Positions 19,602-28,086 of a DNA stretch of 64,000 nucleotides are shown in pieces. Numbering within the stretch: the stretch's first letter is position 1; every line of letters starts with the position of its first letter. The stretch is from Psychrosphaera saromensis (GTDB lineage Bacteria; Pseudomonadota; Gammaproteobacteria; Enterobacterales; Alteromonadaceae), in the NCBI RefSeq assembly GCF_002954545.1, contig NZ_MSCH01000003.1, forward strand, positions 1,080,824 to 1,144,823, written 5' to 3'. A program made the translations under genes and the position numbers. Under the pieces are notes generated by a model. That model was not told the DNA's origin. It worked only from the letters and a program-made list of their open reading frames with translations, and searched no databases.

Positions 19602-19889
19602 ATGAATAGATTGTCTTTATTTTCAGCGGCGGATCTGCAAACGTCTATGAAAGAATGGTTGATAAGCCAAAGAAAAAATCAGAAGTTATCCAGAGACCGA
19701 CTAGCAGAAATAAGTACAGTTCCGTCATCAACCATCAAAAAGTTTGAAACAACAGGTCAAATCTCGTTTAGGCAATTTTTATTGTTATGGCAAAGTGTTG
19801 ATGATTTACAACGATTACAATCATTAACAGAAATATCATCTATTAAAACCGATAAACCAATGTCAATTGAAGAGGTACTTAAAGGATGA
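19602..19889 (+). CDS. HipB-like HTH antitoxin (module 1)
   Basis: A 95-residue protein with a helix-turn-helix in residues 15-65 (LISQRKNQKLSRDRLAEISTVPSSTIKKFETTG). It overlaps the hipA-like gene by four bases (ATGA), and a perfect palindrome lies upstream, so it is probably the antitoxin and autorepressor. Ribosome binding before the ATG is weak, and translation may begin near a transcription start. Confidence 0.8.
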   Translation: MNRLSLFSAADLQTSMKEWLISQRKNQKLSRDRLAEISTVPSSTIKKFETTGQISFRQFLLLWQSVDDLQRLQSLTEISSIKTDKPMSIEEVLKG

Positions 19890-21211
19890 ATTATCTACAG
19901 GTAAAAAAATTAGACGTTAAACGTAAATTGTCAGATGGAACCTCCGTTTTTGTTGGTGAGTTAGCGCAGAATAAACAAGGCGTATATTTTCAATATGACG
20001 ATAATTATTTAGCAAAATTTAATAACCTTTCCCCATTTAATCTTAACGCTGACACATCACTTCAAATAGCTCCTGCTACACCTCATAACGGTTTGCATGG
20101 CGCGTTTTCTGATTCCCTACCGGATGGCTGGGGATTGTTGCTAATGGATCGGATATTTAGACAAGCAGATATTTTACCATCACAAATAACCGCAATGGAT
20201 AGACTCTCGTTTGTCGGCAACGGCGCAATGGGGGCATTATCTTTTTCACCGACTAGCGAATTAAAACAACAAAGTGACATTAGCCAAATTTCAATTGCAG
20301 AGTTAGGCATGCAAGCCCAAGCTATTTTTGATGGGCAAACCTCAGATGTGTTACAAGCATTGGTTAATGCTGGAAGCTCTGGTGGCGCAAGACCTAAAGC
20401 CCAATTGTACTTAAACGATAACGACAATAATTATTGCAGTACAAGCTCAAGTCAAAACAACCAAGCGTATTTAGTTAAATTTACCTCTTCACAGCTTTCA
20501 TTGGGGCATGAAGAAGGAATATGTGAAGCTGCGTATTTAAGTTTGGCAAAGACCGCTGGCATTGACGTTCCAGAATGGAAGTTATTGGATGCGCCAGAAA
20601 AGTCAGGCGCTGAAAAATGGTTAGCGGTAAAACGCTTCGACACCATTAAAAATAAAAGCTCGGGAAAAAATACCGCGGAAAACAATGTTGCAACCGAAGG
20701 GCGACTGCATTTACACAGTGCATGCGGGTTGTTGGATGCAGATTTTAGAATGCCAAGTTTAGATTACGAAGACTTAATAAAAGCCAGCAGTTTATTATGT
20801 AAGAGTCCTGCGGCAGGACAAGCGATGTTTCGTCGTATGATATTTAACTTGTTTGGGTTAAATCAAGATGATCACAGTAAGAACTGGGCGTTTTTACAAG
20901 ATGATATTGGCAAATGGCAGTTAGCTCCATTTTACGACATTACCTACAGCCCAACACCATTTAATGAACATTCAACGGCGTTCTCAGGATTTGGCAAAAC
21001 ACCGAGTTTACAGGTTATGAAAAAACTAGCAGCGCACGCTAATTTTTCTAATTGGAAAGAAGCCCAGCAGGTTATTCAAGAAGTTGTAGATGCTATAAAT
21101 AACTTTGCTAATGTTGCAAAAACCCTAAATGTAAAAACAGATACTATTAAATTAATAAGCAAACAATTGGATAATGTTTATAACGAAAATAAAATATTAT
21201 TAACGGTTTAA
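19886..21211 (+). CDS. HipA-like Ser/Thr kinase toxin (module 1)
   Basis: A 441-residue HipA-family protein. The N-terminal subdomain has PHNGLHGAFSDSLPDGWG; the phosphate-binding loop region has SSGGARPKAQLYL; the catalytic loop is FNLFGLNQDDHSKNWAFL (D-H-x-K-N) with the metal-binding region FYDITYSP. HipA kinases phosphorylate cytosolic targets such as GltX and induce dormancy; the target here is unknown. It is translationally coupled to the upstream HTH gene. It differs clearly from the second HipA at 32.7 kb. Confidence 0.88.
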   Translation: MNYLQVKKLDVKRKLSDGTSVFVGELAQNKQGVYFQYDDNYLAKFNNLSPFNLNADTSLQIAPATPHNGLHGAFSDSLPDGWGLLLMDRIFRQADILPSQITAMDRLSFVGNGAMGALSFSPTSELKQQSDISQISIAELGMQAQAIFDGQTSDVLQALVNAGSSGGARPKAQLYLNDNDNNYCSTSSSQNNQAYLVKFTSSQLSLGHEEGICEAAYLSLAKTAGIDVPEWKLLDAPEKSGAEKWLAVKRFDTIKNKSSGKNTAENNVATEGRLHLHSACGLLDADFRMPSLDYEDLIKASSLLCKSPAAGQAMFRRMIFNLFGLNQDDHSKNWAFLQDDIGKWQLAPFYDITYSPTPFNEHSTAFSGFGKTPSLQVMKKLAAHANFSNWKEAQQVIQEVVDAINNFANVAKTLNVKTDTIKLISKQLDNVYNENKILLTV

Positions 21212-21237: not shown

Positions 21238-22314
21238 CTATAAACTCGACAATGCCTTTTCAGCCATCTGTTTTATATAAGCATTTACTTTCCAACTTTT
21301 TGGGTTCCAGCCTAATAAAAACCGATAAAAATCCGCCCATGCTACAGGATATAACTCTTGGTACTCTTTGCTTAATTCTACAAAATCTATACTGGAATGC
21401 TCATCATGGGGAGTATGAGTTACAGCATCAGCTAATGCTTGTTTTAATGCGTTTAAATAAAATGGCAGGATAAGCTCTCCAAACTCTTCAAGACCAGACT
21501 GGTCAAGCGCACTACCCGCTAAATAGGCTAAATCAACAACTCCAACACCACGGCCTACATATTGAAAATCCACTGCTGCAACTGAGTTGCCATCAGAATG
21601 AAAACATAAGTTTTCAAACTTAGCGTCGCCATGTATTAAGGTTTGGTACTTAGCCTCTTTTAAACGTTTATCCAGCCGTGTTGCCTGTTGTTTTAAATTT
21701 GATTCTGGCATCGCAAGCAATTCATCTTGGCGTGTATTTAAGTGCCAATAACCACCTTGTGACCACAAATTATCAGCCTTAGTAAACATGAATTTACTAT
21801 GAAAGTTGGCCAGCCAAGTTATGGCTGTTTTAAGTTTTTGCCAATCGTTCTTATCTGCGCTTATGTTAAAACCACTGGCATGTAAGTCTTCCATCACCAG
21901 TAAGTAACCATCTTCTAATTCTATGATTTCATATAAGGTCGGGACTTTGCAGTTTTGTGCAGCATTTTGTTGATTGTGGCTTTGGCTACAACCGTGGTTA
22001 CAGTTTTGATTAAACGCTTTATTACAGAAGCTGGCATATTCACGATAAAAGTGAGTTTCTACCTGGTAAGATTTGATTTTTCGCTGGTGGCTTTTGTCAC
22101 CACTCCAACCTCTAGGGTGTTCAGTAAGCGGCGCTGAAGTTTGAATATGTTTAACAATATAACTCTGTTTTTTGTTTTTACTATAACAACGCACAATACT
22201 GCCATAACCGCTCCAAAGCTCCTGTAATTGCTCAACAAATTCAAGAGACTGATCTTGTAATGTGTCTTGTAATACTTGTTGTAATTGAGGCAACAAATCA
22301 AAAGACGTCGGCAT
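21238..22314 (-). CDS. APH/CHK-like phosphotransferase
   Basis: A 358-residue protein-kinase-fold small-molecule phosphotransferase. The Brenner motif LIHGDAKFENLCFH and the metal-binding AVDFQYVGRGVGVVDLAYL identify the family, close to the ecdysteroid-kinase/choline-kinase-like group. The N-terminal part includes YIVKHI (candidate ATP lysine) and LLVMEDL (hinge). An unusual histidine-, cysteine- and asparagine-rich insert (NQNCNHGCSQSHNQQNAAQNC) sits near residue 105. The substrate is unknown. It is convergent with hipA and separated by a hairpin from the peptide gene upstream, so it may not belong to that operon. Confidence 0.78.
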   Translation of the reverse strand: MPTSFDLLPQLQQVLQDTLQDQSLEFVEQLQELWSGYGSIVRCYSKNKKQSYIVKHIQTSAPLTEHPRGWSGDKSHQRKIKSYQVETHFYREYASFCNKAFNQNCNHGCSQSHNQQNAAQNCKVPTLYEIIELEDGYLLVMEDLHASGFNISADKNDWQKLKTAITWLANFHSKFMFTKADNLWSQGGYWHLNTRQDELLAMPESNLKQQATRLDKRLKEAKYQTLIHGDAKFENLCFHSDGNSVAAVDFQYVGRGVGVVDLAYLAGSALDQSGLEEFGELILPFYLNALKQALADAVTHTPHDEHSSIDFVELSKEYQELYPVAWADFYRFLLGWNPKSWKVNAYIKQMAEKALSSL

Positions 22315-22390
22315 GGTGATGATCTTCTTTATATTCAGGTTTAAGTGGCGGGCTTTAAATGCGGCAAATGGTATTTAGTTAAGAATGGAT

Positions 22391-22423
22391 AAAGTTAAAG
22401 GGCGTTTAAAACCCTTCAACTTT
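22391..22423 (-). terminator. Hairpin between the GG-leader peptide gene and the phosphotransferase gene
   Basis: Arms AAAGTTAAAGGG (22391-22402) and CCCTTCAACTTT (22412-22423) with one mismatch. It probably ends the peptide transcript, although the T run is poor. Confidence 0.5.
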
Positions 22424-22443
22424 ACTTTTAACCAAAAAGATTG

Positions 22444-22581
22444 CTAATCACGAACAATGATTTCGCCGTTTTTACCTGCAATACTGCCACCGCTAACGGC
22501 TTTTATTTCTTGCGCGTTAAGCTCACGTACTTTACTGTCTTGAGATTTAGTATTTTTTTTTGCTTTGTTTTTAATATTCAT
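22444..22581 (-). CDS. 45-residue peptide with double-glycine leader
   Basis: A short gene with a good AAGGAA ribosome-binding site seven bases before its ATG. The product starts MNIKNKAKKNTK, continues VRELNAQEIKAVSGG (residues 18-32), a bacteriocin/microcin-type double-glycine leader with the usual E-L-x-x-x-E pattern, and ends SIAGKNGEIIVRD. Cutting after G32 by a peptidase-containing ABC transporter would release a 13-residue core. No such transporter or maturation enzyme lies in the window. The core end GKNGEIIVRD resembles GKTGTIIVQE, the end of the upstream 120-residue protein. Function is inferred only. Confidence 0.7.
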   Translation of the reverse strand: MNIKNKAKKNTKSQDSKVRELNAQEIKAVSGGSIAGKNGEIIVRD

Positions 22582-22727
22582 AATGTATTCCTTTTTTATG
22601 CTTGAGTTATAAAATAATTTACATTTATGTGTCGGTTGCGAATTAACACTTCAGTTATACTGAAATATATTAAATAAGCCACGGCTAACACAGCTTTTAT
22701 CTAAACCAATAACCATTCGTAAATAGT

Positions 22728-23090
22728 TTACTCTTGAACAATAATCGTACCAGTTTTACCAGTAATATCTCTTACATCAAAATGTGGAGCAAGCTCTTCA
22801 TAAGTTGCATCAGCTACAGATTTATCACCGCTATATTTTACAATATCTAATGTGAAAGTATCGGTGCCCGATTGACTCGCTGTTTTTACAACTGTTTGGC
22901 TATTAGGTACCCATTCCCACTCTGAGTCATTCCACTTAAAAAAGACAAATGTGTTCGGTGTACTAATAGCGCTAGCTAAAGTCTCATCCACAATAAAATG
23001 AAGTTCAGCCCCTGGTTCTACATCTGTTCCTAGAGTAATAAACACTACTTCTTTTGGCGTGCCCTTTACTGTCATTAATACATCTCTCAT
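22728..23090 (-). CDS. Unknown 120-residue protein sharing a C-terminal motif with the GG peptide
   Basis: No family recognised. The start is one of two adjacent ATGs (23093 or 23090) following AAAGGAAGC; a longer frame to 23168 is unlikely. The sequence is acidic and rich in beta-prone residues (EVVFITLG, AELHFIVDE, TFVFFKWNDSEWEW), without a signal peptide or transmembrane segment. It ends VRDITGKTGTIIVQE, resembling the end of the downstream GG-leader peptide. The two genes lie 146 bases apart on one strand, divergent from the Ser/Thr kinase. It might be a substrate, partner or immunity-like protein of the same system. Confidence 0.6.
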   Translation of the reverse strand: MRDVLMTVKGTPKEVVFITLGTDVEPGAELHFIVDETLASAISTPNTFVFFKWNDSEWEWVPNSQTVVKTASQSGTDTFTLDIVKYSGDKSVADATYEELAPHFDVRDITGKTGTIIVQE

Positions 23091-23314
23091 CATGCTTCCT
23101 TTGTTTTGTTTAATTAAATTAAAGTTAAATCGGACTTTTACTTTAATCAGGATTGATTGTTTAAGCAAATATATTACATAACATACTGAATTATAATATC
23201 TTTAGATTGAGTTTTTAGTTAATGCACTAACTAATAGAAAACGGGATAAAGCCCTCGAGTAAATTCGTATTATTGTAACAACCAGTAGTGCTGTGGAGTG
23301 TTAAACGTTATACT

Positions 23315-23349
23315 TTTTCTTTTCTTTTCTTTTCTTTTCTTTTCTTTTC
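23315..23349 (+). repeat. Pentanucleotide microsatellite (TTTTC)x7
   Basis: Seven perfect five-base units directly upstream of the kinase gene, 160-195 bases before its ATG. Such tracts change length by slipped-strand mispairing. Confidence 0.95.
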
Positions 23350-23356
23350 AAAGTCA

Positions 23357-23386
23357 AAGGACAAGGACAAGGACAAGGACAAGGAC
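23357..23386 (+). repeat. Hexanucleotide microsatellite (AAGGAC)x5
   Basis: Five perfect six-base units, flanked by degenerate copies on both sides (23350-23405), only seven bases after the pentanucleotide tract and about 120 bases before the kinase start. Confidence 0.95.
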
Positions 23387-23508
23387 AAACACAAAGACAA
23401 ATAGACAGCAGACTAACGTTTATCTTATGACGGTAATTAATAAATTATCAGTTTGATAGTTTGTTCGTATTTTTAACACATAGCCGCTTTATTTATATAG
23501 GAGTTATT

Positions 23509-26500
23509 ATGGCCACAGATGACAGTCATTTAGAAGATACACTTCCTATTGATGAAGGGGGTGGTGTTAGTACTAGCGCTAGTTCAGGTACAGCATTTGC
23601 AGAACACAACCTTAATGGCTTTCCCATTAAGGTTAATAGTCGATTTACTTACGTAAAACGTCTTGGTCGAGGTGGTAGTGCTTTGGTTTACCAAGCATTT
23701 GATAATGTGCTTGAACGCCATGTAGCTCTAAAGTTTTTATTAAATCCCCAACAGAAAAACCAAGCAAGATTAGTAGCTGAAGCTCGCTCACAAGCTAATG
23801 TAGAACACTCTAATATTTGCCCTATTTATGAAGTTATTGAAACAGGCAATAGTGTCTACCTAGTTATGCAATTTATTGAGGGGGAAAGCTTACAAGCTTT
23901 GTCGCCAACATTAAGCCTGGAACAAATATTACTGCTATTAAAAAAGACAGCCCTTGGACTGCATACCGCCCACATGCAGGGCATGATCCATCGTGACTTT
24001 AAACCCGCCAATGTAATGGTCAATCTTGCATCTGGTGATATGGATGCCAAAATTGTTGATTTTGGCTTGGCAGCTCAAGATATCAGTCAAGATAATAAAA
24101 CATCTAAACTTGCAGGTACAACCGGGTTTATCTCACCGGAACAATATAAAGATGATTTTACAAAAATAGATCGCAGCAGTGACATTTATTCACTTGGCGC
24201 CAGTCTTTTATACTGTTTAACTGGCAAGCTCCTAGTCATTGGTAAAAGTAATACGGTTGAAAACACTGCAGAAAGCTCTACATCAGACAGCTATACCTTA
24301 AAAAGCGATACCTTAAAAAGTCAAACCTCAAATAGCAAAGCCCCAGCCAGTAAAGAGCTATCTATTAACCAGCCGCCTATTAACGAGTTATTAGCCAATA
24401 CCTCGTTGCCTAAAGACGTACAAATTATTATTGCCAAAAGCATGGCGGCGGAACCTCAAAACCGTTATCAATCAGCATTGGAAATGGCGGATGACATTAG
24501 TCGTTATTTAGCAGGTGAACCAATTAAAGCCAGATCCAGCAAAAGTTATTGGTTAGGCCGAAAGTTAATAAAGCATAAATGGTTAGCGGGGGCAGCGTTT
24601 ATCGCTATTGTTGGTACCTCTGGTATGTACATTAACCAGCTTCATCAGCAGAAAAACCAAGAGCAGCAACAAAGAGTGAGGGAGCAAGGCTTGTTGCAAA
24701 TTAATAATAAGATTAATGATCTGGAATATCAGGCGCAACTTACTTATATGTTACCAAGGCATAACATTGAAGCCCAACAGCAAAAATGGTTAGCAGATGC
24801 TAAGCAACTAGAGCAGGAGTTGCCCGATATTAATCCAATACTGTTAGGTGCAACACATTACGGTATAGGACGTATTTACCAAGTTTTAGGGGATACGTTA
24901 AAGGCGACTGAACACTTAGAGCAAGCACATCAATTAGAAAAAATTGACGACACCGCTTTTTATTTGGCTCTTGCCTACAGTGAATTGTACCAACAGAAAC
25001 TTACTGTACTTCGAAATATCGCTAGTAAAAATGTTAGAGAATCTAGAATTGCGCAACTAGATGAAAAATACAAAACACCTGTAATAGCACTATTAAACGA
25101 ACATATAGAATCAGCCCCTTATCGTTCTTATGCCAATGCTTTGTTGACCTACTATCAAGGTGATTGGGATAGCGCTATGGATATTTTAAATAAAGGTGAA
25201 GATTTACCTGTTTGGTATTATGCGGATGACGTTTTAAAAGGCGATATATTATTAGCGCAAGCAAATGCATTAAATAATGCTGGGAGCATTATTTATTTAA
25301 TAGAGCCTTTAATAAAGCAAGCATCAAGCTACTACCAAAATGCTAACATAATAGCACGTAGTGAACCATCACTTGTACTTAAACAAATATCAGCAATAAA
25401 CTTAGAGTTTGCCATGTTTAACCAAGCTGGTAAGGCAGCTGAAAGTCATTTGATAGATAAAGCTCAACAATTAAGAAGTGAAGTGTTAGAGATCACTAAA
25501 GTAGATGGTGACGTTTATCATACCTTTGGATTACTTTATTTTAACTACGCATTCAATCTACATTATAACAATGGTAAGCCTGAAAAATGGTTGGAGTTGG
25601 CTGAATCAGAGTTTACCAATGCCAATAACTACACCACTAAAATGGGTGATATCTGGTTGTCATTTGCGCGTTTATATTCAAATAAAATTAAATTACAAAC
25701 AGAACTTAATATAGATAATAGCGACACCATAAAAAAAGCAATTAATGCGTTAAATAAAGTGTCAGACACAGCAAAAGATTATTATTATTTTAATCAGTTA
25801 GGCACATTAAATCGCTATAGAGCATTAGACGTTAGGGATGAAGGTGGTGATGATAAAACCTTATTTGAAGCTTCAATTTTTAACTACCTTGAAGCAAATG
25901 CACGATTTCCTGAGCGTATTGGCAGTTTGATAAATGCGGCATCAGTAATTATCGATATGTCAGAAAGTGACGGCCTTAATGATAGGTATCTTGCGTTAAA
26001 AAAAGCAGAGTCAATATTGATTAAGGTTTTAAAAAAAGAAACTGATCATTTTGTTGCTAATTATTATCTTGCAGTTACACAATTTAATTTATTGCATTTA
26101 TCACTTTATCAAGGATTAGCAGTACAAGGATTGGATATAGGTGACGCTTTTAACAAAGCGTCTGAGCAAATGGCGCGGACTAAATTAATCAATAGTACTT
26201 TGCCTTATGTTTTAGACTTGGAACAAAGGCTGAAACAATTAGAATATGAATTAGTGTTCCAAAAAACAAAACAATGGAATAATGACTTTGATAAGCTTAT
26301 TGCAGCAAGAACGAAGCTAGCAAAAACGTTTGCACAAAATACTATAGTGACCAGTAACTTTGTGGGAGTACTTTGCGGCATAACGGGTATTCGTGTTCAA
26401 TTAGGTTTACCTGCTGAAGCTTATATTGATAAGCTAGAACAAGCACTTAACGAGTATCCTGAATTTGAAAATGTGGAAGCGTATCGGGCGTTAAGCAAAT

Positions 26501-26733
26501 TATTCCGCAATTGGAATACACCAAGCGTAGGTAAGCTTAATCTAATAAATGACTTTAAGCTAAGAGAAAAACGTACCCCACCACATGATTGGGCGTTAGC
26601 TATGGTGTTAATAGCAACAGCGAGTACGAAACAGGATATAGAGGAAGCAACCGAATTATTAAATAGCAATAAAGGTATGCTTCCAGCCTATCGAAAACTG
26701 ATTTTGGAATGGGCCAACAAAAAAGTATTTTAA
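23509..26733 (+). CDS. Transmembrane Ser/Thr protein kinase with large TPR-like C-terminal domain
   Basis: A 1074-residue PknB-type kinase. The kinase domain (about residues 45-345) has GRGGSALVY (from G53), ALKFL with the ATP lysine, HRDFKPANVM (D163), DFGLA (D184) and GTTGFISPEQY. It contains a serine- and threonine-rich insert near residues 245-290 (repeats of TLKS). A single transmembrane helix follows (about 359-378), then about 700 residues of helical repeats resembling TPRs, probably outside the cytoplasm. ATG 23509 has AGGAG upstream; the longer TTG frame is unlikely. Two microsatellites lie in its promoter region, and an FHA protein gene follows after 87 bases. Confidence 0.9.
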   Translation: MATDDSHLEDTLPIDEGGGVSTSASSGTAFAEHNLNGFPIKVNSRFTYVKRLGRGGSALVYQAFDNVLERHVALKFLLNPQQKNQARLVAEARSQANVEHSNICPIYEVIETGNSVYLVMQFIEGESLQALSPTLSLEQILLLLKKTALGLHTAHMQGMIHRDFKPANVMVNLASGDMDAKIVDFGLAAQDISQDNKTSKLAGTTGFISPEQYKDDFTKIDRSSDIYSLGASLLYCLTGKLLVIGKSNTVENTAESSTSDSYTLKSDTLKSQTSNSKAPASKELSINQPPINELLANTSLPKDVQIIIAKSMAAEPQNRYQSALEMADDISRYLAGEPIKARSSKSYWLGRKLIKHKWLAGAAFIAIVGTSGMYINQLHQQKNQEQQQRVREQGLLQINNKINDLEYQAQLTYMLPRHNIEAQQQKWLADAKQLEQELPDINPILLGATHYGIGRIYQVLGDTLKATEHLEQAHQLEKIDDTAFYLALAYSELYQQKLTVLRNIASKNVRESRIAQLDEKYKTPVIALLNEHIESAPYRSYANALLTYYQGDWDSAMDILNKGEDLPVWYYADDVLKGDILLAQANALNNAGSIIYLIEPLIKQASSYYQNANIIARSEPSLVLKQISAINLEFAMFNQAGKAAESHLIDKAQQLRSEVLEITKVDGDVYHTFGLLYFNYAFNLHYNNGKPEKWLELAESEFTNANNYTTKMGDIWLSFARLYSNKIKLQTELNIDNSDTIKKAINALNKVSDTAKDYYYFNQLGTLNRYRALDVRDEGGDDKTLFEASIFNYLEANARFPERIGSLINAASVIIDMSESDGLNDRYLALKKAESILIKVLKKETDHFVANYYLAVTQFNLLHLSLYQGLAVQGLDIGDAFNKASEQMARTKLINSTLPYVLDLEQRLKQLEYELVFQKTKQWNNDFDKLIAARTKLAKTFAQNTIVTSNFVGVLCGITGIRVQLGLPAEAYIDKLEQALNEYPEFENVEAYRALSKLFRNWNTPSVGKLNLINDFKLREKRTPPHDWALAMVLIATASTKQDIEEATELLNSNKGMLPAYRKLILEWANKKVF

Positions 26734-26820
26734 TAAAGTTAAACAAAAGACTGTATTAATAATATAATCAAGAATAAGATAATACTTGTTTAAATAACGA
26801 CCAACTAAAAGGGGTACCCA

Positions 26821-27816
26821 ATGGCATATATTAAAAGTTTTGACAAAGGCATTATTCATTTAAAACAAAGCCATTTATTTGGTCGTTTACAAAATGTTGT
26901 AGATACCTACTTGCAAGACAGCGCCGTGTCTCGTTTACATTTTTTATTAGAATATACCGCGCCAAACTGGTACTTAGTCGATTACAGCAGTAATGGAACT
27001 TGGGTAAACGGCGTGCGTATTACTAAAGGTGTACAAACATTAGTTAAACAAGATGACGTTGTTGTTATTGGTGGCAAGTTTGGTACTGAGTTTCAATTTG
27101 TAGATGCTGGTGAACCGGTAGATATACTTTGCAGACGCAACAGCCCTGACAGCCCAATTATTGAAACCTTACAATTGCAATCGACAAACCATTTACCAAA
27201 TCAACAACACTGTGAGGTGAGTATAACCAGAGATAATGACAACTGGGTGTTAGAACATGAACACCAACAACGCAGCTTACATGACGGCGACTGGCTCACC
27301 ATAGAAAAGCAAAAGTGGCAGCTGGTACTAACGGATGCACCAAATTCCACAATGAAAGTTCAAGACAACGAACTTCAGTTATCTGAAATACAGTTACAAT
27401 TACATACCAGCCTAGATGAAGAAACGACCAGTGCTAAAATGGTCAGTCACATGGGTGAAGTTAATTTACAAACACGTAGTCATCATTATTTACTCTTGTT
27501 ACTTGCAAGACAAAGAATTGCAGATGCCAATAATCATATTGACGCTACAGAGTGTGGTTGGGTTTATATGGATCACTTAACAGAAATGCTAGGTATACCA
27601 GAAACCTTAATTAATATTCAGATTTACCGAGCTAGAAAACAATTAGAAACCGCGTTAAATGGTGACATTGACGGCAAAGAACTAATAGAACGACGCTCAG
27701 GGAAAATTCGTATTGGGTTAACACACTTTGCCATCTACAAAGGTGCTAATTTGGAAGCTCAGAACGCGGAAGACACAAGCCTAAAAAGCAAAAGCTTAGA
27801 CACTGAAGCTGCCTAA
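26821..27816 (+). CDS. FHA-domain protein with C-terminal winged helix
   Basis: A 331-residue soluble protein. The FHA domain (residues about 18-95) has LFGRLQN, SAVSRLHFLLEY and SSNGTWVNG, the phosphothreonine-binding signature. The C-terminal part (about 215-310), with METLIN-like helix LGIPETLINIQIYRARKQLE and a SGKIRIGL beta hairpin, resembles an OmpR/SARP-type winged helix. It is therefore a candidate transcription factor that reads phosphorylation by the kinase encoded upstream. AAGGGG precedes the ATG and a hairpin terminator follows. Targets are unknown. Confidence 0.82.
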   Translation: MAYIKSFDKGIIHLKQSHLFGRLQNVVDTYLQDSAVSRLHFLLEYTAPNWYLVDYSSNGTWVNGVRITKGVQTLVKQDDVVVIGGKFGTEFQFVDAGEPVDILCRRNSPDSPIIETLQLQSTNHLPNQQHCEVSITRDNDNWVLEHEHQQRSLHDGDWLTIEKQKWQLVLTDAPNSTMKVQDNELQLSEIQLQLHTSLDEETTSAKMVSHMGEVNLQTRSHHYLLLLLARQRIADANNHIDATECGWVYMDHLTEMLGIPETLINIQIYRARKQLETALNGDIDGKELIERRSGKIRIGLTHFAIYKGANLEAQNAEDTSLKSKSLDTEAA

Positions 27817-27856
27817 GCTATTAGATAATTAATATATTAAATAACTAAGCATTAAA

Positions 27857-27903
27857 TTTAAAGGTTCAGTTTTATAAGTTATTTATAAAGCAGAACCTTT
27901 AAA
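27857..27903 (+). terminator. Long hairpin after the kinase-FHA operon
   Basis: Outer arms TTTAAAGGTTC (27857-27867) and GAACCTTTAAA (27893-27903), with a second paired stretch TTATAA inside. It marks the end of the kinase-FHA transcription unit. Confidence 0.7.
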
Positions 27904-28086
27904 GCTTTCAATTTCAAACCGCATATCTCAAGCCTGCATATAAAGCTCTTCATAGTAAAGCCCCAAATGTGAATCAAACACCTTCACAACGTATCTGTTT
28001 CTTACCCTATTTTGATTTTACTAACTTACTGGACGTAAATAGGCTAAAATCGCAGGTTATTGTTTTAGCCTTGAGCCCTTTATAAA

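Follow-up and report, generated by a model that had tools for sequence, protein, structure and literature searches.

A recurrent pairing of bacterial Ser/Thr kinases with small conserved-tail proteins, seen from a four-gene block in Psychrosphaera saromensis

Introduction

The marine gammaproteobacterium Psychrosphaera saromensis carries a discrete block of four genes on contig NZ_MSCH01000003.1 (assembly GCF_002954545.1). The block lies in the 64,000-nucleotide stretch from position 1,080,824 to 1,144,823, which was analysed as a whole and is called the window hereafter. It consists of two divergent halves, a Ser/Thr kinase gene with an FHA protein gene on one side, and the genes of a 120-amino-acid (aa) protein and a 45-aa peptide on the other. 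Our analysis shows that kinases related to the one in the window regularly adjoin a gene whose small product has a conserved tail at its C-terminus, and that the 120-aa protein and the peptide both end in such a tail. The four genes probably represent a mobile or differentially retained kinase/FHA regulatory unit that works with the small tail protein. The activator of most bacterial Ser/Thr kinases is unknown, and a small partner gene beside so many kinases, with a tail common to otherwise divergent partners, is a testable candidate for a ligand, substrate or output.

An earlier reading of the window, made from its sequence only, had described a kinase-FHA-peptide signalling module and had left the link between the divergent halves as an inference. 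All four genes are present as described. The link is now backed by the joint absence of the genes from two sister species, by the common C-terminal tail and by the pairing of tail proteins with related kinases.

Results and Discussion

Small tail proteins adjoin related kinases

Loci were collected by two routes. The FHA protein led to loci in 17 of 98 genomes (the window's own included) and to 80 named loci, and the TPR half of the kinase to loci in 15 of 295 genomes of the family, again including the window's own and leaving out three weak matches (G130, G139 and G283). Since 100 of the 111 loci scanned came via the FHA protein, the frequency of FHA genes among them is uninformative, and a fair set was defined as the 14 kinases of at least 800 aa found via the kinase half, excluding that of the window.

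Of the related kinases, 50 distinct ones are 800-1200 aa long; in 39 of these cases a gene at most 350 bp away encodes a small protein with a strictly defined tail. The tail is of the DPxIxV type in 31 and of the GxIxV type in 8 of them, and 38 of the 39 genes are convergent at the 3' end of the kinase gene. The tail gene of the window is instead divergent and 418 bp away from the kinase, like that of locus L073, which also holds the nearest relative of the window kinase (41% identity across the TPR half). Among the 11 kinases without a strict match four have a neighbour with a looser tail, two a tail-bearing open reading frame (ORF) that was dropped by the gene caller, and five no such neighbour. 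As a background, 778 distinct small genes without an adjacent kinase were examined; 9 encode the strict tail, four of these 9 lying in kinase/FHA loci anyway. The fair set gives a similar picture, with an adjoining strict tail in 10 of 14 kinases, a looser one in three (L044, L077 and L078) and none in one (L082:6410); two of the strict tail proteins (L079 and L081) are missing from the gene-caller count and were seen in another scan. Among the 35 FHA loci with a kinase within 700 bp, 26 have a DP-tail protein at the kinase. The FHA loci that lack a kinase, also 35 in number, have no DP-tail protein; therefore the tail protein goes with the kinase.

Tail type also follows the kinase phylogeny. 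On a tree of 51 kinase domains (14 labelled xG or looser non-DP, 32 DP and 5 not counted, the labels including the looser tails of fair-set kinases), the distinction between DPxIxV and xGxIxV requires 2 changes, whereas 300 shuffles needed 12.3 on average and never fewer than 7; this control overstates independence because the set includes close relatives. The clade of the window kinase comprises 13 rows (Shimodaira-Hasegawa-like approximate likelihood ratio test 97), of which 12, the window's included, are xG or looser non-DP and one is unlabelled.

Two further observations concern the small neighbours. At a single kinase in locus L035 (1166-2240), two small proteins are encoded in tandem and share the tail DPxxVIIRPP; by eye, the first seems to carry a Sec signal peptide and the second does not. 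In the FHA loci L138, L165 and L186 the kinase is longer than 1200 aa and lacks a DP or xG tail protein; here a neighbour of 177-304 aa ends in YPFTxS, possibly another class of tail.

The four genes behave as one block

Two sister species (G001 and G002) keep the flanking genes side by side without the four genes, which therefore form a single discrete block (Table 1). In the window, the distance between the EcKL-like gene and rhlE is about 5.8 kb and contains all four genes. The same distance is about 190 bp in G001, where the four genes are absent, and about 150 bp in G002, where no gene lies in between. From these comparisons the left edge of the block falls within 22227-22444 and the right edge at 28011-28019. 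Seven of ten neighbouring genes shared with G002 are 90-98.5% identical at the protein level and the other three 78-80%. The comparison within the genus covered seven other genomes, two with the uninterrupted site, two with the EcKL-like gene in a different setting and three without an EcKL-like gene, so that the absence of the block as a unit is read from G001 and G002. An insertion in the window and a loss in the sisters are equally compatible with these data. Although the window's module is missing here from G002, that genome has an FHA-kinase-DP-tail module of its own elsewhere (L038).

Table 1. Features of the four-gene block (window coordinates)
Feature	Position	Strand	Description
45-aa peptide gene	22444..22581	-	ORF; leader VRELNAQEIKAVSGG, then SIAGKNGEIIVRD; leader and tail matches
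120-aa small protein gene	22728..23090	-	Ends DITGKTGTIIVQE, xG-type tail; beta-rich in a low-confidence model
Intergenic region separating the divergent halves	23091..23508	.	Two simple repeats
Ser/Thr kinase gene, 1074 aa	23509..26733	+	N-terminal kinase domain, weak hydrophobic segment, long TPR-like C-terminal half
331-aa FHA protein gene	26821..27816	+	FHA domain and C-terminal helix-turn-helix-like domain
Block missing in two sister species	22274..28010	.	Between EcKL-like and rhlE genes

An AGGA resembling a Shine-Dalgarno sequence precedes all three starts examined, those of the 45-aa, 120-aa and kinase genes. We take the ATG at 23509 as the kinase start; a longer ORF begins with TTG at 23461.

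The patchy distribution and the island-like presence of the block would also fit an anti-phage or conflict system, with the kinase as effector and the small protein as trigger or inhibitor. nSTAND NTPases are common in conflict systems, and related loci described below use nSTAND1 NTPases. This explanation appears improbable to us. The matches of the kinase to PADLOC models are generic: they fall on kinase domains across numerous models, which is expected of every Hanks-type kinase, and assignment to a PADLOC defence system was rejected for this reason. The FHA and 120-aa proteins of the window have no PADLOC match, and the immediate neighbours are not recognised as defence genes.

Kinase and FHA protein

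The window kinase matches Pkinase with 137 bits and has GxGxxxxV, VALK, HRD and DFG, i.e. the full motif set of a Hanks-type Ser/Thr kinase. Its description as a transmembrane protein with a large TPR-like domain holds less well: the hydrophobic segment near residue 358 peaks at a hydropathy of 1.32, below the line of 1.6 that was used, and the TPR match is sub-threshold (17.7 bits, cut-off 27). Among the relatives 42 of 50 have one segment above the 1.6 line, starting between residues 250 and 520.

The 331-aa protein contains an FHA domain (57.8 bits). FHA domains bind phosphothreonine through residues that correspond here to R22, S37, H40, N58 and G59. Across 21 FHA sequences, the window's among them, G21, H40, N58 and G59 never vary, and R22 and S37 hardly do. 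The C-terminal domain of about 130 residues looks helix-turn-helix (HTH)-like by eye, whereas the winged helix proposed earlier for this part is not recognised by Pfam; Sigma70_r4_2 appears weakly in 2 of the 21 members, and hhalign against the winged HTH (wHTH) of nSTAND proteins gives a probability of 8.5.

A kinase adjoining the FHA protein recurs in relatives: 45 of the 80 FHA loci hold a kinase, and in 35 it lies within 700 bp. Seen from the kinase, an FHA-HTH protein is encoded within 2 kb of 4 of the 14 fair-set kinases. The FHA protein is thus a frequent but optional partner. In locus L050 (8263-9795) a 510-aa protein, FHA-like at its start and GGDEF-like at its end by eye, is encoded between the kinase and the FHA-HTH gene.

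The closest described kinase-FHA system is presumably the PknH-EmbR type of kinase/FHA transcription-factor pair, which likewise places a Hanks-type kinase beside an FHA protein that has phosphothreonine-binding residues and a putative DNA-binding domain. In the loci studied here, by contrast, the kinase has a TPR-like C-terminal half, the C-terminal domain of the FHA protein is a different, unrecognised one, and a small tail protein is usually present.

The 45-aa peptide is a local addition

The ORF of the 45-aa peptide begins with a double-glycine leader, VRELNAQEIKAVSGG, which ends in GG according to the leader consensus and resembles other leaders in the same genome (MRELNVNEIEQVNGG); the mature part, SIAGKNGEIIVRD, has 13 residues. 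In these respects the peptide agrees with the double-glycine peptides that are handled by C39 transporters, and two proteins with C39 peptidase domains, of exporter size (frames of 722 and 759 aa), are encoded about 225-235 kb away. It differs from the usual case in that neither of these putative exporters adjoins its gene and in that its 13 mature residues are similar to the tail of the protein encoded next to it.

Alignment of SIAGKNGEIIVRD with the 120-aa protein's tail DITGKTGTIIVQE scores 35, against a background with mean 0.3 and standard deviation 5.8. When the C-termini of 1783 distinct genes, taken from the larger loci and the window, are compared with the peptide, the 120-aa neighbour comes out best. 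The next ranks are taken by an unrelated gene (25), the small protein of the L073 kinase (24, seen as L054) and a glycine-rich unrelated gene (24); further down come the kinase-linked small proteins of L074 (23) and L076 (21, seen as L068). The small protein at the L073 kinase has GEIIVR without any change.

The peptide does not recur with the kinase. In 195 other genomes of the family the best match has an expectation value (E) of 0.05 and covers the leader only, and in 393 other genomes of the order no match reaches E 0.05. The 111 fetched loci contain no short ORF with both the leader consensus and the tail; a looser scan gave 6 short ORFs that combine GG with a tail-like end; none has the leader, and two come from duplicated records. 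The proposed role of the peptide as a conserved member of the module is therefore refuted, since the kinase operon occurs without it and no full-length match exists in the genomes searched. The peptide is a local, lineage-specific add-on and not a conserved signal. Across the loci fetched, the kinase with its tail protein recurs, the FHA gene is optional and the peptide is absent.

Absence from every other genome and fetched locus searched, together with the commonness of leader-type peptides in the family, would be expected if the 45-aa gene were an unrelated bacteriocin-like gene with a tail that is similar by chance. We regard such a coincidence as hardly probable, given that the best C-terminal match is the very next gene, ten points above the best unrelated one, that GEIIVR recurs in the tail protein at L073, and that the gene lies inside the block missing from the sister species.

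Relation to DP-EP and PixA proteins

A small conserved-tail protein beside a large TPR signalling protein is also found in the DP-EP family (DUF1888, PF08985; SO1698 of Shewanella oneidensis, PDB 3njh, 3nji, 3njk, 3njl and 3njm), and the DP-type kinase partners resemble this family in several respects. Seven of 15 match Pfam DP-EP at 14-19.5 bits (cut-off 25) and eight do not match; the four xG-type partners scanned have no DP-EP match. Profile comparison shows homology between the alignment of DP-type partners and canonical DP-EP (95.3%, E 2e-8). All 19 canonical members compared keep S-x-D-P. Among 30 distinct kinase-linked DP partners, a set selected by the DP, 26 also have its Ser. The predicted model of one DP-type partner (L147; mean confidence score pLDDT, the predicted local distance difference test, 89.5) has SO1698 as best fold match (E from 5.5e-5; template modelling score 0.38-0.46 by query, 0.51-0.65 by target), followed by two-domain laccases (E from 6e-4) and by PixA 4pib (E 1.9e-3).

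SO1698, a DP-EP protein, is an aspartic peptidase according to its PDB title. It reportedly cleaves itself at the Asp116-Pro117 bond, a finding said to be that of Osipiuk et al., J Biol Chem 2012. The PDB listing is consistent with this cleavage: the D37A, S114A, D116A and P117A chains have 128 residues, the other 'Peptidase' entries 119.

Canonical DP-EP genes above the cut-off occur in 48 of the 295 family genomes, the window's own being without one. In all 20 loci fetched from these 48 genomes the gene adjoins one conserved protein, about 1090 aa long and divided between two ORFs in one case; in the three cases scanned it is a wHTH-nSTAND1-TPR protein and not a kinase. A small protein of the DP-EP kind is paired with two unrelated signalling enzymes, both ending in TPR-like repeats, which suggests one sensing principle employed by a kinase and by an nSTAND NTPase regulator. 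Many of the canonical loci (L230-L249) also have a nearby gene with a C-terminus like that of a GGDEF protein by eye. A literature search among open-licence papers found no description of a Ser/Thr kinase paired with DP-EP-like tail proteins.

The inclusion-body proteins AidA/PixA (PF12306) have a comparable C-terminal tail, xDPxIxI, in addition to the weak 4pib fold match; neither the window protein nor 19 other kinase partners scanned match PF12306. One kinase locus contains a true PixA gene (L148:3363-3932; PF12306, 87 bits), located upstream of the FHA and kinase genes and with a product ending in WDPYITIED.

These similarities speak for a different explanation, according to which the tail protein is cargo: a protein of the DP-EP/PixA type that forms inclusions or processes itself and is merely regulated by the nearby kinase/FHA or nSTAND proteins. 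The sub-threshold DP-EP matches and profile homology of the DP-type partners, the fold matches of L147 to SO1698 and at lower rank to PixA, the constant DP-EP neighbour of another signalling class and the PixA gene of L148 all point in this direction. We consider it possible, if rather unlikely, since tail types that follow the kinase tree suggest co-adaptation, although co-inheritance of neighbours would have the same effect.

The 120-aa protein itself has no family match in Pfam or NCBIfam, no DP-EP match at E<=1, and no sequence homologue in 59 other genomes or in a scan of the genome contigs, in agreement with its earlier description as an unknown. A solved relative by sequence was sought and rejected, all matches being at chance level. 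Its predicted model is beta-rich but of low confidence, with a mean pLDDT of 48. Unlike DP-EP proteins, it reads G-K-T-G instead of S-x-D-P, TG (in the peptide NG) standing at the DP position. Profile comparison with DP-EP gave no similarity for either of two xG groups or for an alignment of the window protein and three DP-type proteins, and the two xG groups show no profile homology to each other (E 0.008, probability 4.8). The window and xG proteins, which show no profile link to DP-EP, are grouped with the other tail proteins by their gene slot and tail and appear to be of one kind with them.

A proposed regulatory unit with a dedicated small partner

In the regulatory unit as we picture it, the kinase would phosphorylate itself or a partner on threonine, and the FHA protein would bind the phosphothreonine and alter transcription of the module via binding of DNA by its HTH-like C-terminal part. 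The 120-aa, putatively beta-rich tail protein would be the dedicated partner of the kinase, acting as ligand, substrate or output, and the C-terminal strand (xG-x-I-x-V; D-P-x-I-x-V in sister clades) would be the functional element common to the group, with a presumed binding target. The 45-aa peptide would place the same tail behind a secretion leader as a lineage-specific addition, and a C39 peptidase exporter encoded elsewhere in the genome could release the 13-residue tail peptide.

Several points weigh against this picture. Five of the 50 related kinases lack a tail neighbour altogether, as do 12 kinases longer than 1200 aa (5 of these at a locus edge), and L073, the closest kinase relative, has a tail protein but no adjoining FHA gene. 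The transmembrane segment of the window kinase and the winged helix of the FHA protein are both weakly supported. No sequence homologue of the 120-aa protein was found, and profile comparison links neither this protein nor the xG groups to DP-EP, so that gene position and tail are the ground for counting all tail proteins as one kind. Co-inheritance of neighbours would likewise bring tail type and kinase tree into agreement.

A bolder version, which we offer as a long shot, would make the tail a detachable signal strand, so that a bacterial Ser/Thr kinase would receive its ligand by strand exchange. The partner in the DP clades would cut itself at Asp-Pro and free its C-terminal strand; the window clade would have lost the cut site (xG for DP), with a separate gene supplying the strand in trans as a 13-mer processed at the double glycine. 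The 13-mer might then swap into the 120-aa protein, or be read by the TPR half of the kinase outside the membrane.

Minor observations in and around the block

The region between the divergent genes contains two adjacent repeats, a perfect (TTTTC)7 at 23315-23349 and (AAGGAC)7.3 at 23357-23400, where slippage could vary expression, i.e. cause phase variation. Outside the block, a HipA-type kinase gene (19602-21211; HipA_C 142 bits) is preceded upstream by a 95-aa gene, and the pair is retained in G002.

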